A stretch of DNA of 64,000 nt, taken from NCBI GenBank assembly GCA_900696645.1, contig CAADGV010000045.1:1-64000 (forward strand). Reading direction: 5' to 3'. A program made the position numbers and the translations under genes. The notes beneath the pieces were generated by a model that saw only the letters and a list, made by a program, of their open reading frames with translations, did no database searches and was not told the DNA's origin. Of the stretch, positions 23,862 through 39,031 are shown piece by piece; the first letter of the stretch is position 1; each line of letters begins with the position of its first letter. This DNA comes from an uncultured Chlorobiota bacterium (lineage in GTDB: Bacteria; Bacteroidota; Ignavibacteria; UBA10030; UBA6906).

Positions 23862-23928
23862 ATTTCGAATTGCGGATTTTCAATGTCGAATTGAACCGAT
23901 CCGCAATTCACAATTCGTAATTCGAAAT
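23862..23928 (+). repeat. Imperfect palindrome between nuoD and nuoE
   Basis: ATTTCGAATTGCGGAT begins directly after the nuoD stop and is mirrored by ATCCGCAATTC and then TAATTCGAAAT at the end of the 77-base gap, so it can fold into a long A/T-rich stem. It has no run of T after it, so it is not an obvious terminator; the family of 'TTCGAATTGCGGA' repeats could be mobile. Confidence 0.65.
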
Positions 23929-23938
23929 CCAACATACT

Positions 23939-31843: not shown

Positions 31844-33000
31844 AACGCGTCTATCTCGATCATACCGCAACTACCCCGCTCGATGAACGAGTCTTCGAGG
31901 CAATGCGTCCCTACTTTTCGGAGGCGTTCGGCAACGCGTCGTCTGTTCATTCGTTTGGAAGAGAAGCAAAGTCGGCGTTAGAAAAGGCGCGGGAGACGAT
32001 CGCAAAAGCGATTGGTGCGCAAAGCGGCGAAGTGTTCTTCACAAGCGGCGGAACCGAGTCCGACAACTTTGCGATTCGAGGGATAGCAAAAGCGAGTTTG
32101 AAGAAAGGGAAGAATCATATCATCACATCGGCTGCTGAACATCCTGCCGTTCTGGAACCGTGTGAGATGTTGAGGGAGGAGGGATTTGATGTAACAGTTC
32201 TGCCGGTTGATGCGAACGGTATCGTCTCTCCTGATCAGGTGAAGCAGGCAATCACCGGCAAGACTTGCCTCGTTACGATCATGCACGCGAACAATGAAGT
32301 CGGCTCCATCTCGCCAATCAAAGAAATAGCGGAAGCGGTACATGAGAAAGGCCTGCCCCTCCACACCGACGCCGTTCAGACGCCGGGCAAGATTCCGCTG
32401 AATGTTGCAGAGTTGGGAGTAGATTTAGTGACCCTTTCCGCCCACAAATTGTACGGGCCGAAAGGTATCGGGGCGTTGTATGTGAAGAAGGGAACTGAAC
32501 TTGAACCGATGCTTCACGGCGGCGGACAAGAACGAGGCAAGCGTCCGGGAACCGAGAACGTGCCTCTTGCGGTTGGTTTTGCGAAAGCCGTTGAGCTTGC
32601 GGTTTCCGAAATGGAAGTTGAAATGAAACGGCTTGCAACGATTCGCGACAATCTCCAATCCGCAATCAGCAACCAGTTCCCGTCAGCAATCATCAACGGC
32701 CACCCGACCGAACGGCTTCCGAATATCCTCAACATTTCATTCGACAGCAGCAAGATTCAACTTGAAGGGGAGATGTTAGTGATGAATATGGATTTGGAGG
32801 GAATCGCCGTTACGAGCGGGTCGGCATGTACATCGGGAAGCATGCAGCCCTCGCATGTTCTGCTGGCGATGGGACGGGACGGAAAGACGGCACGGGCGAC
32901 GCTGCGGTTTGCATTTGGAAAAAGCAACACGACGGAAGATGTTGAGTACGTTGTGGCAAAACTCCGGCATGTTATAAGCCGCATGGCCGGGCGGGCCTGA
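31840..33000 (+). CDS. Cysteine desulfurase (NifS/IscS family)
   Basis: The protein is 386 residues. PLP-dependent class V enzyme: YLDHTATTPLDERV at the start, HTDAVQTPGK, the PLP lysine in TLSAHKLYGPKG, and the catalytic Cys in TSGSACTSGSMQPSHV. It provides sulfur for Fe-S clusters. Start overlaps the TerC-gene stop by 4 bases, so they are probably co-expressed. Whether it is the general IscS or a NifS paralogue cannot be settled here. Confidence 0.95.
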   Translation: MKRVYLDHTATTPLDERVFEAMRPYFSEAFGNASSVHSFGREAKSALEKARETIAKAIGAQSGEVFFTSGGTESDNFAIRGIAKASLKKGKNHIITSAAEHPAVLEPCEMLREEGFDVTVLPVDANGIVSPDQVKQAITGKTCLVTIMHANNEVGSISPIKEIAEAVHEKGLPLHTDAVQTPGKIPLNVAELGVDLVTLSAHKLYGPKGIGALYVKKGTELEPMLHGGGQERGKRPGTENVPLAVGFAKAVELAVSEMEVEMKRLATIRDNLQSAISNQFPSAIINGHPTERLPNILNISFDSSKIQLEGEMLVMNMDLEGIAVTSGSACTSGSMQPSHVLLAMGRDGKTARATLRFAFGKSNTTEDVEYVVAKLRHVISRMAGRA

Positions 33001-34922: not shown

Positions 34923-36755
34923 TTACTTTTTCAGGATCGAGAATATCCCCTCAATCCTGCCCATCGGCGCCGAAAGTTGCACGCCGGCGACTTCATTCTT
35001 CACACGCTCAAACGTCTCGCGGGCAATCTTCACGCCTTCGGCGAAACCTTCTTCTTTCGTCGTTGTCTTGCGCATGCGGTCCATAATATCCGGCGGCACG
35101 CTGGCGCCCGGGACTTCGTTGTTCATGAACTCGGCGTTGCGGTATGAGACAAGCGGCCAAATGCCGCACAACAGAGGCAGTTTCACGTATTCAATCCGCT
35201 TCATTGCTTTTTCGAGAATGCGAATGTCGAACACGGGCTGCGTTACAATGTACTCGGCTCCGGCTTCAATCTTCCAATCCAATCTTCTGATTTCTTCATC
35301 AAGATTGATGGCGCCGGGGTTGAATCCGACGCCGGTGCAGAACCCCGTCGGGTCGCCGATCGGGTTGCCGGCAAGATCGAGACCGTGATTGAGACGATTG
35401 ATGATGTTGACAAGTCCGATTGCGTCAACATCGAACACAGCGGTTGCGTCGGGGTAGTTGCCCAACTTCGGCGGGTCGCCGGTGATGGCGATGAGATTGC
35501 GGACGCCGAGCGCCCACGCGCCTAACAAATCCGACTGCATGCCGATCACGTTCCTGTCGCGGCAGGCAAAATGCAACACAGGCTCAATGCCGACTTTTTG
35601 AAGAATGGTAACTGCAAGAGCGAGTGCCGACATGCGGGCACTTGCACGGGGCCCGTCAGGAATGTTGATGGCGTCAATGCCAAAGTGAAACAGCTTGCGC
35701 GCCTTCTCGACTTCTTTCACAGGCAGAACACCTTTGGGTGAAACGAGTTCTACCAGCGTCACAAATTCTTTGCGAAGCAATTTGTTGGAGAGGCGGGATT
35801 TCTCGCTCATTTCGTAGACTTTCACCGCCTCGGGCGCCGTGACTTTCAAATCGGCGACACGCATCTCGACACGCTTGACGGGCTGAAGCGCCTTGACGGC
35901 ACGGCGAATGGCTTTGATGTGTTCGGGATTTGTTCCGCAACACCCGCCGACAATCGCAGCGCCCGTTTGAATAAATCGCTTCGAATATTCGGCAATGTAT
36001 TCGGGAGATGTCATATAGATGTTTCTTCCGCCGACATTTTGCGGAAGTCCCGCATTCGGCTGAACGGAAATCGGCAAGCGAGTAAGCGGCTTGAGCTGCT
36101 CAAGCGCATCGAGCATCGTCTTCGGGCCGACGGAACAATTCATGCCGATGGCGTCAAGCTTGTAGTCTGCAACGCCGGCGACGAAACTCCGAATTGACGC
36201 TCCGCTCAACAAATTGCCGTCGTCGTTGATGGTGACCTGGGCAATGATGGGAATGTCGGGGTTGAGTTCCTTAACTGCACGGATTGCCTGGACAAGCTCC
36301 GAGACAAGTGAGAATGTTTCGAGAATAATCAAATCAACGCCGCCGTCGAGCAAGCCTTTGATCTGTTCCTTGAAAACATCCTTTGCTTCGTCGTACGAGA
36401 GTTTTCCAAGAGGCTCGATTTGCACGCCCAACGGTCCGACTGATCCCGCGACGAGAACGGAATCCCCGGCAACCTTCTTTGCAATCTGTGCGCCTTTGAG
36501 GTTCACTTCGTGGACTTTTGTTTCGAGTCCGTGTGCAGCAAGTTTGAAGCGGTTAGCGCCGTAGGTGTTCGTCTCGATCACGTCCGCGCCGGCGTTCACG
36601 TAGTCGCGATGCACCTCGCTGACGATGTCGGGATTGATGAGATTCAGTTCATCAAAGCACGTGTTGATGAAGATTCCTTTTTCGTACAAGTATGTGCCGA
36701 CGCCCCCGTCAAAGAGGATGACTTCTTTGCCCAAACGTTCGCGAAATTGTTTCAT
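34923..36755 (-). CDS. Homocysteine S-methyltransferase / 5,10-methylenetetrahydrofolate reductase fusion
   Basis: The protein is 610 residues. Residues about 1-300 are the Zn/homocysteine methyltransferase barrel: LFDGGVGTYLYE, GMNCSVGP and the metal-binding GGCCGTNP. Residues about 320-610 are the MTHFR (MetF) domain: LVELVSPKG, HFACRDRN, NLIAITGDPP, YIVTQPVFD and PLLCGIWPL. Such two-domain proteins (YitJ type) generate methylenetetrahydrofolate products and pass methyl groups to homocysteine. The pairing suggests methionine synthesis in one polypeptide. Confidence 0.95.
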   Translation of the reverse strand: MKQFRERLGKEVILFDGGVGTYLYEKGIFINTCFDELNLINPDIVSEVHRDYVNAGADVIETNTYGANRFKLAAHGLETKVHEVNLKGAQIAKKVAGDSVLVAGSVGPLGVQIEPLGKLSYDEAKDVFKEQIKGLLDGGVDLIILETFSLVSELVQAIRAVKELNPDIPIIAQVTINDDGNLLSGASIRSFVAGVADYKLDAIGMNCSVGPKTMLDALEQLKPLTRLPISVQPNAGLPQNVGGRNIYMTSPEYIAEYSKRFIQTGAAIVGGCCGTNPEHIKAIRRAVKALQPVKRVEMRVADLKVTAPEAVKVYEMSEKSRLSNKLLRKEFVTLVELVSPKGVLPVKEVEKARKLFHFGIDAINIPDGPRASARMSALALAVTILQKVGIEPVLHFACRDRNVIGMQSDLLGAWALGVRNLIAITGDPPKLGNYPDATAVFDVDAIGLVNIINRLNHGLDLAGNPIGDPTGFCTGVGFNPGAINLDEEIRRLDWKIEAGAEYIVTQPVFDIRILEKAMKRIEYVKLPLLCGIWPLVSYRNAEFMNNEVPGASVPPDIMDRMRKTTTKEEGFAEGVKIARETFERVKNEVAGVQLSAPMGRIEGIFSILKK

Positions 36756-36766
36756 GGTGTTCCTTA

Positions 36767-36815
36767 GATTGAAATCCTAATATCAAATATCGAAATACTA
36801 AACAAATTCAAAATG
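36767..36815 (+). repeat. Left inverted repeat of the four-helix-bundle element
   Basis: GATTGAAATCCTAATATCAA continues ATATCGAAATACTAAACAAA and TTCAAAATG. Its reverse complement aligns with 37200-37244 through the shared blocks GAAATCCTAAT, TCGAAA and CTAAACAA. It lies between the fusion gene and the four-helix gene and contains that gene's stop codon. Confidence 0.8.
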
Positions 36816-37202
36816 AGAAAACCTGAACAACAAAACCGGTTCTACTGCGATTTGGTCAAGATTGCGCCAAAAGATCTTCATCAATTCGGTTGATTCTTGA
36901 ATTAATGCCGCTCGTTCTGCTTCTGTGGCTTCGTTGCACTGTGTCAGTCGAAGCCAATAGCCGCTTTCTTTTGCTCCCTTTCGGCAAATCTTAATTCTCA
37001 TAAGAAAGTCCTTTTTCCCTAATGCTTCGTTTGCCTCAATGTAATTTGCGCCAACCGAACCGGATGAGCGAATGAGTTGCTTGCCATATTCAAGATTCGA
37101 CATTGTCTTCTGTAATCTTTCAACAAACCCTCCAACCCTTTTTGCAAACGCCTCGGTTCGTTCCTCGAGATCATATCGTTTGGGACTTGGTTTTTCAGAC
37201 AT
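36798..37202 (-). CDS. Four-helix-bundle protein (23S rRNA intervening-sequence/Avd-like family)
   Basis: The protein is 134 residues. The family signature is present: YDLEERTEAFAKRV, EYGKQLIRSSGSVGANYIEA, KKDFLMRIKICRKGAKESGY, WLRL, with four predicted helices. These proteins occur as S23/IVP genes and as Avd accessory proteins; isolated copies are common and their function is unknown. The gene lies inside an inverted-repeat pair, and its last codons (HFEFV) come from the left repeat. No reverse transcriptase is nearby, so a diversity-generating element is not indicated. Confidence 0.85.
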   Translation of the reverse strand: MSEKPSPKRYDLEERTEAFAKRVGGFVERLQKTMSNLEYGKQLIRSSGSVGANYIEANEALGKKDFLMRIKICRKGAKESGYWLRLTQCNEATEAERAALIQESTELMKIFWRNLDQIAVEPVLLFRFSHFEFV

Positions 37203-37244
37203 TCGAGCTTGTTTAGAGTTTCGACATTAGGATTTCGAATTCTT
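37200..37244 (-). repeat. Right inverted repeat of the four-helix-bundle element
   Basis: Read on the minus strand, AAGAATTCGAAATCCTAATG continues TCGAAACTCTAAACAAGC and TCGAATG. It matches the left repeat except for about 6-7 bases missing in the middle. It contains the stop codon of the ppx-like gene (frame ...EKNSKS*). Confidence 0.8.
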
Positions 37245-38150: not shown

Positions 38151-38161
38151 CTGAGTACAGA

Positions 38162-39031
38162 TTACTGATTGGGGATTGCGGCTTGCAGGACAAACGCAAT
38201 CCATTCGTTCTCAGAAAGCGTTTCCGCAATCTGTAGTCCGTAATCCGCAATCGCTTTCCTCATGGGTTCTTCATCAATATTCAGCAAGCCCGAAAGGATG
38301 ATTGTTCCTCCCGGTTTCAATCTTAATGTCATCTCCGGAAGCAACGGCTCGATCACGTTCCGCTGGATGTTGGCAACAATCAAGTCGAACGTGCCGGAGG
38401 GAACGGACGAGAGTTCTCCGAGAATAATCCGTACCGGATTCTCAACACAATTGAGCTGAAGGTTCTCAAGCGCGTTGCTGTACGACCATTCGTCGTTGTC
38501 AACACCCACGGCCGACGATGCGCCGAGTTTGATTCCTGCAATCGCCAGGACACCTGTTCCCGTTCCCACATCCAGTAAGCTGATTCCTTGCCTCACGTAC
38601 CGTTCCATCAATTTCAGAACGAGCCGCGTTGTTTCATGATAGCCCGTGCCGAAGGACATTTTCGGATCGATCACGAGAACAAGCTCGCCGAGCTGTGCTT
38701 CGTACTTGTGCCACGTCGGTGTGATAACGATGCGATCCGTGACGTGAATGGGCCGAATAGTCTTTTCCCATTCCTCGTTCCAGTTCTTAGCTTCTAGTTC
38801 CCTGACGGAAATTGTCGGAATAACCGAATTGCCCGACCGATGCACAGTCTTGACGACACGTTCAACTTCAGCGAACAGGCCGTCACTCCACCGTTCTTTG
38901 TTCATGTAACATCGAAGGACGTTTCCTTCTTCCCAAAATCCTTCAAAGCCGAGTTGCGTGAGAATGCCGACAAGTTGTTCGCGGAGTTGCTCGTCTGCAA
39001 CGAGTTCAAGTTCGGTGTACGCGGCGGACAT
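38162..39031 (-). CDS. prmA: Ribosomal protein L11 methyltransferase
   Basis: The protein is 289 residues from ATG 39031. The frame is open further to 39289, but those residues lie over the neighbouring glutaminyl cyclase gene. The PrmA layout is present: an N-terminal alpha/beta substrate domain (to about residue 95), NWNEEWEKTIRPIHV, FGTGYHETTRL and SAM motif LLDVGTGTGVLAIAG, then LIVANIQRNV (NxxxN-type) and LKPGGTIILSG. It trimethylates L11. Upstream neighbour in transcription is the QC gene, 7 bases away. Confidence 0.95.
   Translation of the reverse strand: MSAAYTELELVADEQLREQLVGILTQLGFEGFWEEGNVLRCYMNKERWSDGLFAEVERVVKTVHRSGNSVIPTISVRELEAKNWNEEWEKTIRPIHVTDRIVITPTWHKYEAQLGELVLVIDPKMSFGTGYHETTRLVLKLMERYVRQGISLLDVGTGTGVLAIAGIKLGASSAVGVDNDEWSYSNALENLQLNCVENPVRIILGELSSVPSGTFDLIVANIQRNVIEPLLPEMTLRLKPGGTIILSGLLNIDEEPMRKAIADYGLQIAETLSENEWIAFVLQAAIPNQ

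Follow-up and report, generated by a model that had tools for sequence, protein, structure and literature searches.

Heptad-Repeat Arms around a Single IVP/S23 Gene: A Likely Dispersed Element of about 470 bp

The window (that is, the whole stretch of 64,000 nucleotides that was analysed) contains a 471-bp unit between a ppx-type gene and a methyltransferase gene. The explanation preferred here, and held to be likely, is that an element of about 470 bp has been dispersed and that this unit is one of its copies; in it, arms of AANNNCK heptads followed by AAACAA surround one IVP/S23 gene. Its dispersal as a unit rests on data, and its way of movement is inferred. Heptad repeats have been described repeatedly in cyanobacteria, Xanthomonas, Geobacter and giant sulfur bacteria without their origin being given, and here they appear as the inverted ends of units that carry an IVP gene. 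The ends of the element are defined, there is a candidate for its cognate protein, and sites lacking the unit are known, so the binding of IVP proteins and the movement of rRNA intervening sequences (IVS) become directly testable. Caution is also needed in annotation, as many annotated genes owe their stop codon and final residues to such insertions.

Structure of the Element

The whole element occupies positions 36772..37242 on the minus strand, its ends being fitted to the cross-phylum arm consensus given below. The 5′ terminal arm (37200..37242, minus strand) consists of the heptads AATTCG/AAATCCT/AATGTCG/AAACTCT and then AAACAAG.., and both the stop codon of ppx and the start codon of the IVP gene lie inside it. 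When aligned with 80 related loci, it agrees with 30 of the 43 consensus letters and, together with the 3′ arm, forms the best match in the window. The 3′ terminal arm (36772..36809, minus strand) is inverted relative to the 5′ arm, contains the IVP stop codon (36798-36800) and is the top match within the window, with 31 of 38 consensus letters. Both arms have a 7-nt period.

The original prediction, made from sequence alone, had claimed inverted repeats sharing GAAATCCTAAT, TCGAAA and CTAAACAA in the same order. This claim held: the three motifs follow one another in 36771-36804 and in the reverse complement of 37200-37236, and the inverted-arm score of 14.5 was reached by none of the 3151 pairs of the same geometry elsewhere in the window (mean 6.7, maximum 13.3). 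It also held that the IVP gene takes its stop codon and last residues from the left repeat, and the ppx gene its stop codon from the right repeat, which supplies the IVP start codon as well. What had been missed was the 7-nt period and the fitted ends (36772 and 37242), as well as the breadth of the family, its bias towards sense orientation and stop codons, and its parallel with the rRNA intervening sequences.

The sole gene of the element is the IVP/S23 four-helix-bundle ORF (36798..37202, minus strand, 134 aa), which matches TIGR02436 with 57 bits and PF05635 with 43 bits, both above the cut-off. The upstream host gene on the same strand encodes a Ppx/GppA-type phosphatase (PF02541; 37227..38204), whose final codons and stop (37227-37229) are supplied by the 5′ arm. 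The downstream host gene (34923..36755, minus strand) encodes a homocysteine S-methyltransferase/methylenetetrahydrofolate reductase (NF006396, 739 bits) and starts 16 nt past the end of the element. No Rfam match was obtained at this ppx/metF-type locus, and the protein of the element had no match to a catalogued defence protein in PADLOC-DB.

To our knowledge, no function has been assigned to IVP/S23 “four helix bundle” genes. The AlphaFold2 model of the protein (mean pLDDT 86) has four helices, and the closest solved structures are 2RLD, 2GSC and Avd (4DWL; TM 0.5-0.6 for Avd). The IVP protein is accordingly predicted, at good confidence, to have the fold of the S23 proteins and Avd.

The ppx Locus in Related Genomes and Heptads Elsewhere

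The sister species G001 carries the unit at the identical place. In G009, which belongs to a related genus, the unit is absent, and ppx is followed by a short plain spacer and then by the methyltransferase gene; in the more distant congener G002 it is also absent, with a different short heptad hairpin in its place. In both of these genomes without the element, ppx directly precedes the methyltransferase gene, and the 3′ end of ppx differs. Since the unit is present in the source genome (G000) and G001 and absent from G002 and G009, it has been gained, or lost elsewhere, as a block. Two checks proposed with the original prediction are hereby answered: empty sites were to be sought in relatives, and such sites exist, the one in G002 being occupied by the hairpin; and the presence of the repeats and gene at the same place in all relatives, which would have spoken against mobility, was not observed.

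The next-best match to the arm consensus in the window (27 of 43 letters) is a gene-less heptad hairpin between nuoD and nuoE (23862..23938, plus strand, self-complementarity score 26.8). The same spacer holds other, mutually different heptad hairpins in G001 and in G002. Two heptad arrays have no inverted partner nearby: the first (38155-38204) lies in the 3′ end of prmA, immediately ahead of ppx, and the second (32649-32676) is within a cysteine-desulfurase-like ORF, where it encodes LQSAISNQ. The source genome is not littered with heptads: of the 242 spacers in 464 kb, no more than 8 pass, and several of these adjoin IVP genes. Five of its six other IVP loci have inverted arms, with a sequence that is different each time and mostly with the 7-nt period. 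On contig C24 of this genome, two IVP units (L003, L004) lie around a nucleotide-sugar dehydrogenase gene in successive gaps of one operon.

Distribution across Phyla

The subfamily of the window's IVP gene was used as the query against a database with one genome per species, giving more than 570 relatives, of which the best 80 (50-76% protein identity to the query) were analysed. These loci span Bacteroidota, deltaproteobacteria, Planctomycetota, Nitrospirota, Patescibacteria, Omnitrophota, Chloroflexota, WOR-3, Verrucomicrobiota and others, and include one archaeon, of the Methanophagales. They come mostly from metagenome-assembled genomes, so that individual contigs may have been assigned wrongly, but misassignment cannot account for so wide a spread.

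At nearly all 80 loci the arms are homologous to those of the window. The consensus consists of four heptads AANNNCK, then AAACAA and then a TTCRAA-like end, with the start codon directly after. The lag-7 score averages 11.3 in one arm and 11.7 in the other; apart from lag 14, the remaining lags score about 4-6. The outer boundary is sharp, that is to say, the sequences to the left of the first AAA are unrelated among copies. The length is uniform as well: the median of the 53 well-fitted copies is 472, and 472 or 473 is most frequent. At the DNA level, identity between phyla reaches 82%, with a median of 69% over at least 380 nt. The possibility, raised beforehand as a refutation, that the repeats are unrelated low-complexity sequence can therefore be set aside: one consensus is maintained across the phyla, and the repeats end sharply on their outer side.

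The neighbouring genes are of many kinds. Of the upstream neighbours, 78 were usable, and these form 69 homology clusters; the 80 downstream neighbours form 73. The 82 copies (the 80 loci, the window's and the sister's) adjoin about 70 unrelated genes. Since the same ends stand beside so many unrelated genes, the arms travel with the gene. The check for several copies with the same ends was thereby passed, and the claim of a small mobile or once-mobile element carrying only a four-helix gene is supported as regards dispersal; recent mobility was not shown. The search within single genomes gave no near-identical copies at separate sites, that is, no recent transposition was caught, and “recently mobile” is consequently not supported. 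Nor was a target-site duplication present (the longest flank repeat averaged 3.7, against 3.4 in shuffled pairs). Searching viral contigs gave no relative of the element, and phage records gave one partial match.

The IVP gene is in sense with the upstream ORF at 72 of 78 loci. In 27 of 45 cases the stop codon of the upstream gene starts between -11 and +3 of the left end of the element, and the next gene usually begins 0 to 24 nt past its right end. Both the sense bias and the placement at stop codons could stem from the insertion mechanism or from selection against harmful insertions, and this remains undecided.

One alternative explanation is an RNA-level element, which would insert via RNA with a reverse transcriptase supplied in trans, as in the retrohoming that uses Avd. 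It is favoured by the strong sense bias, by insertion mostly just behind stop codons and by the structural kinship with Avd. However, selection could equally yield the sense bias, and no RVT_1 match was found in the source genome or in the IVP-rich genomes G092 (15 copies), G095 (16), G111 (14) and G180 (15). As no reverse transcriptase was found here or in several IVP-rich genomes, a resident enzyme is unlikely to drive retrohoming of the Avd-like type, and the RNA-level explanation as a whole is unlikely too.

Joint Dispersal of Arms and Gene

In one genus, five species carry 11 to 16 IVP copies per genome, and most of the slots are common to the species. The slots in that genus are thus mostly old, which means that movement was rare or took place earlier. 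At several slots, the IVP gene of one species is a different one, with 37-68% identity where 92-100% is otherwise found, while the flanking proteins are mostly 94-99% identical; at these slots both arms differ as well. Moreover, among pairs of loci at different slots, the similarity of the arms climbs with that of the proteins, and the outer flanks stay flat. The pairs are not independent, so this trend is support and not proof. Taken together, it is very likely that arms and gene were dispersed together as a unit to many unrelated places and across phyla. A link to polysaccharide operons was also considered and was dropped, because in one genus the neighbours proved to be housekeeping genes of diverse kinds.

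It could be argued instead that the unit is an immobile regulatory cassette of operons with fast-evolving arms. Slots common to species, and sometimes to genera, speak for this, as does the recurrence of different heptad hairpins in the nuoD-nuoE spacer. Against it stand the same ends beside about 70 unrelated neighbours, 60-70% protein identity across phyla and the sites without the element at the ppx locus. As regards dispersal over long times the cassette explanation is already contradicted, and it is considered very unlikely.

Two side observations concern the arrangement of units within operons. In another genus, four IVP units follow one another in a phenylacetate-type operon (G111:C14:220770-226854). 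In the comparison of L245 with L236, one unit seemingly lies inside the remnant of another, as the 3′ arm of the relative persists behind the newer unit.

Heptad Arms as a Trait of IVP Loci

IVP/S23 genes were found in 114 of the 148 sampled genomes of the phylum, with up to 16 copies. For 63 IVP loci of the phylum, the inverted flanks exceeded the 99th percentile of cross-paired flanks in 44% and the 95th in 68%. In both flanks of these loci the strongest periods are lag 7 and its double, followed by lag 8; the gene and the remainder of the window lack this pattern. Other IVP subfamilies, those on cyanobacterial plasmids among them, have different arms, which are equally heptad-periodic and inverted. 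As a control, the solo Y1 transposase genes of the phylum were used, and their flanks are inverted and of REP type, without the 7-nt period. Since the flanks of IVP genes are heptad-periodic and those of Y1 genes are not, the heptads are a trait of IVP loci. The solo Y1 (RAYT-like) genes (L169-L208) are abundant in the phylum and mostly lie between inverted REP-like hairpins, e.g., GGGCTTTAGCCC or TCCCGTTAGGGA.

The heptad type (G, T or C before AA) is concordant between both arms of one element in 59 of 63 cases, and the element-wide type correlates at 0.89-0.94. No covariation was detected at the three free positions of the heptad, and the arms match element-wide and not position by position. 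It is inferred that base pairing accounts less well for this element-wide agreement than a shared binding motif or homogenisation does. In the predicted RNA fold the arms are paired (z of only -1.6), again without covariation in register. RNA pairing as the cause of the likeness of the arms was rejected as not shown, because the free positions do not covary in register.

A code of recognition by the protein was considered as well, with Arg24/Asp39 for G-type arms and Ile for T-type arms. A plain test made it look strong, but it did not hold up in simulation on the tree (one of 66 columns, p 0.011), and close relatives whose arms are of opposite type have these residues in common; it was rejected.

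Another explanation regards the heptads as separate simple repeats born of slippage, with the IVP genes merely near them. In favour of it, gene-less heptads also occur without IVP genes, and the literature treats heptads as simple repeats (PMC4692102, PMC4679880, PMC2700814). Yet the arms match in inverted order at the same locus, the heptad type is element-wide, distance and boundary are fixed, and heptads are absent around Y1 genes, which makes slippage very unlikely.

Proposed Mechanism

For the dispersed element preferred here, the following mechanism is inferred. The arms would serve as arrayed binding sites, and the protein bound to them would be the cognate IVP, an Avd-like bundle that is probably pentameric. 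Since the element encodes no known enzymes for movement, it would rely on enzymes supplied in trans. Its insertion may be tolerated because the arms bring stop codons and spare the ribosome-binding site of the next gene, and also because the arms of the transcript could pair and place the unit in a hairpin, as in the 23S rRNA intervening sequences. As far as the protein is concerned, these steps are weakly secured: its binding to the heptad arms of the unit that encodes it is inferred without binding data and could go either way, and its direct part in movement, also an inference, is rather doubted than expected.

In a bolder reading, which is no more than possible and stands or falls as a whole, IVP/Avd-type proteins define a class of mobile elements without a known recombinase, and the protein would read its own heptad arms and drive sense insertion behind stop codons with host enzymes. 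If this were true, the class would include, as members or as remnants, the rRNA intervening sequences, the cyanobacterial short tandemly repeated sequences (STRRs) and many orphan heptad hairpins.

The most serious competitor, which remains possible, is a non-autonomous passenger, that is, a MITE-like unit moved in trans by the transposase of another element, with the IVP gene as cargo or regulator. The lack of a known recombinase in the element and the gene-less heptad hairpins at the same kind of place agree with it. On the other hand, the solo Y1/RAYT genes of the phylum lie between REP-like hairpins of their own without the 7-nt period, and some IVP-bearing genomes have no Y1 match at all (G086 with 9 copies, G099 with 8 and G087 with 5). 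Furthermore, no transposase bearing the arms of the element was found among the 80 loci, transposase families other than Y1 being outside the search.

Comparison with Known Systems

It has been reported that the 23S rRNA IVS of Coxiella burnetii is 428 nt long and has one S23 ORF, complementary ends and heptamers GACAGAT in tandem directly before the ORF; it was called a selfish element, and horizontal transfer was suspected (PMC4990558). IVP genes have also been found in rRNA insertions of Patescibacteria (PMC11270868). The present element is similar in being small, with one S23/IVP ORF inside inverted-repeat ends and with heptamers, and it meets the definition of an IVS by its ORF (TIGR02436, PF05635, fold match to 2RLD and 2GSC). 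However, an IVS lies in helix 45 of 23S rRNA and is cut out by RNase III, whereas the element lies between protein genes, here ppx and a metF-type gene, so that the criterion of location fails; in addition, its heptad arms are conserved over phyla. It is therefore likely to be a free-standing relative of the rRNA intervening sequences and, by location, not one of them; there are no data on excision from the transcript.

As for insertion sequences, the element has terminal inverted repeats with defined ends, but it fails on the transposase, its only ORF being the IVP gene, and on the target-site duplication. The REP/RAYT system resembles it in having one gene between its own inverted hairpins and gene-less hairpins elsewhere; it differs in that the element has no HUH/Y1 transposase and its arms are heptad arrays and not short REP palindromes. 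With the Avd of diversity-generating retroelements it shares the four-helix fold, while the criterion for such a retroelement fails, as RVT_1 (reverse transcriptase) has no match in the source genome.

Heptad repeats, some of them in inverted pairs, are known from Xanthomonas (GGGAATC) and Nostoc (PMC4692102), Geobacter (PMC2700814) and Beggiatoaceae (TAACTGA; PMC4679880), and these papers draw no link to IVP genes. Like the arms of the element, the known repeats have a 7-nt period, are intergenic and often form inverted pairs; unlike them, they are described without any gene, whereas the heptads of the element are the ends of an IVP unit. A link between heptad repeats and IVP genes was not found in the open-access literature searched (subscription papers were not covered, and priority is uncertain).

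Twelve plasmid IVP loci (11 cyanobacterial and one from Bernardetia) were examined, and lag 7 was the strongest period in both flanks of all 12. Because these loci share heptads, the cross-paired control is itself high, and just two of the 12 lie above its 99th percentile. Several have perfect or near-perfect inverted heptad arrays, such as Nostoc sp. C052 with an identical arm of 39 bp on each side. The classical STRRs of cyanobacteria thus appear as the ends of IVP units, at least at the loci examined. It was also observed that cyanobacterial plasmid IVP genes (L351, L355-L358) adjoin defence genes, namely DISARM drmD, BREX pglX and cas1/cas2.
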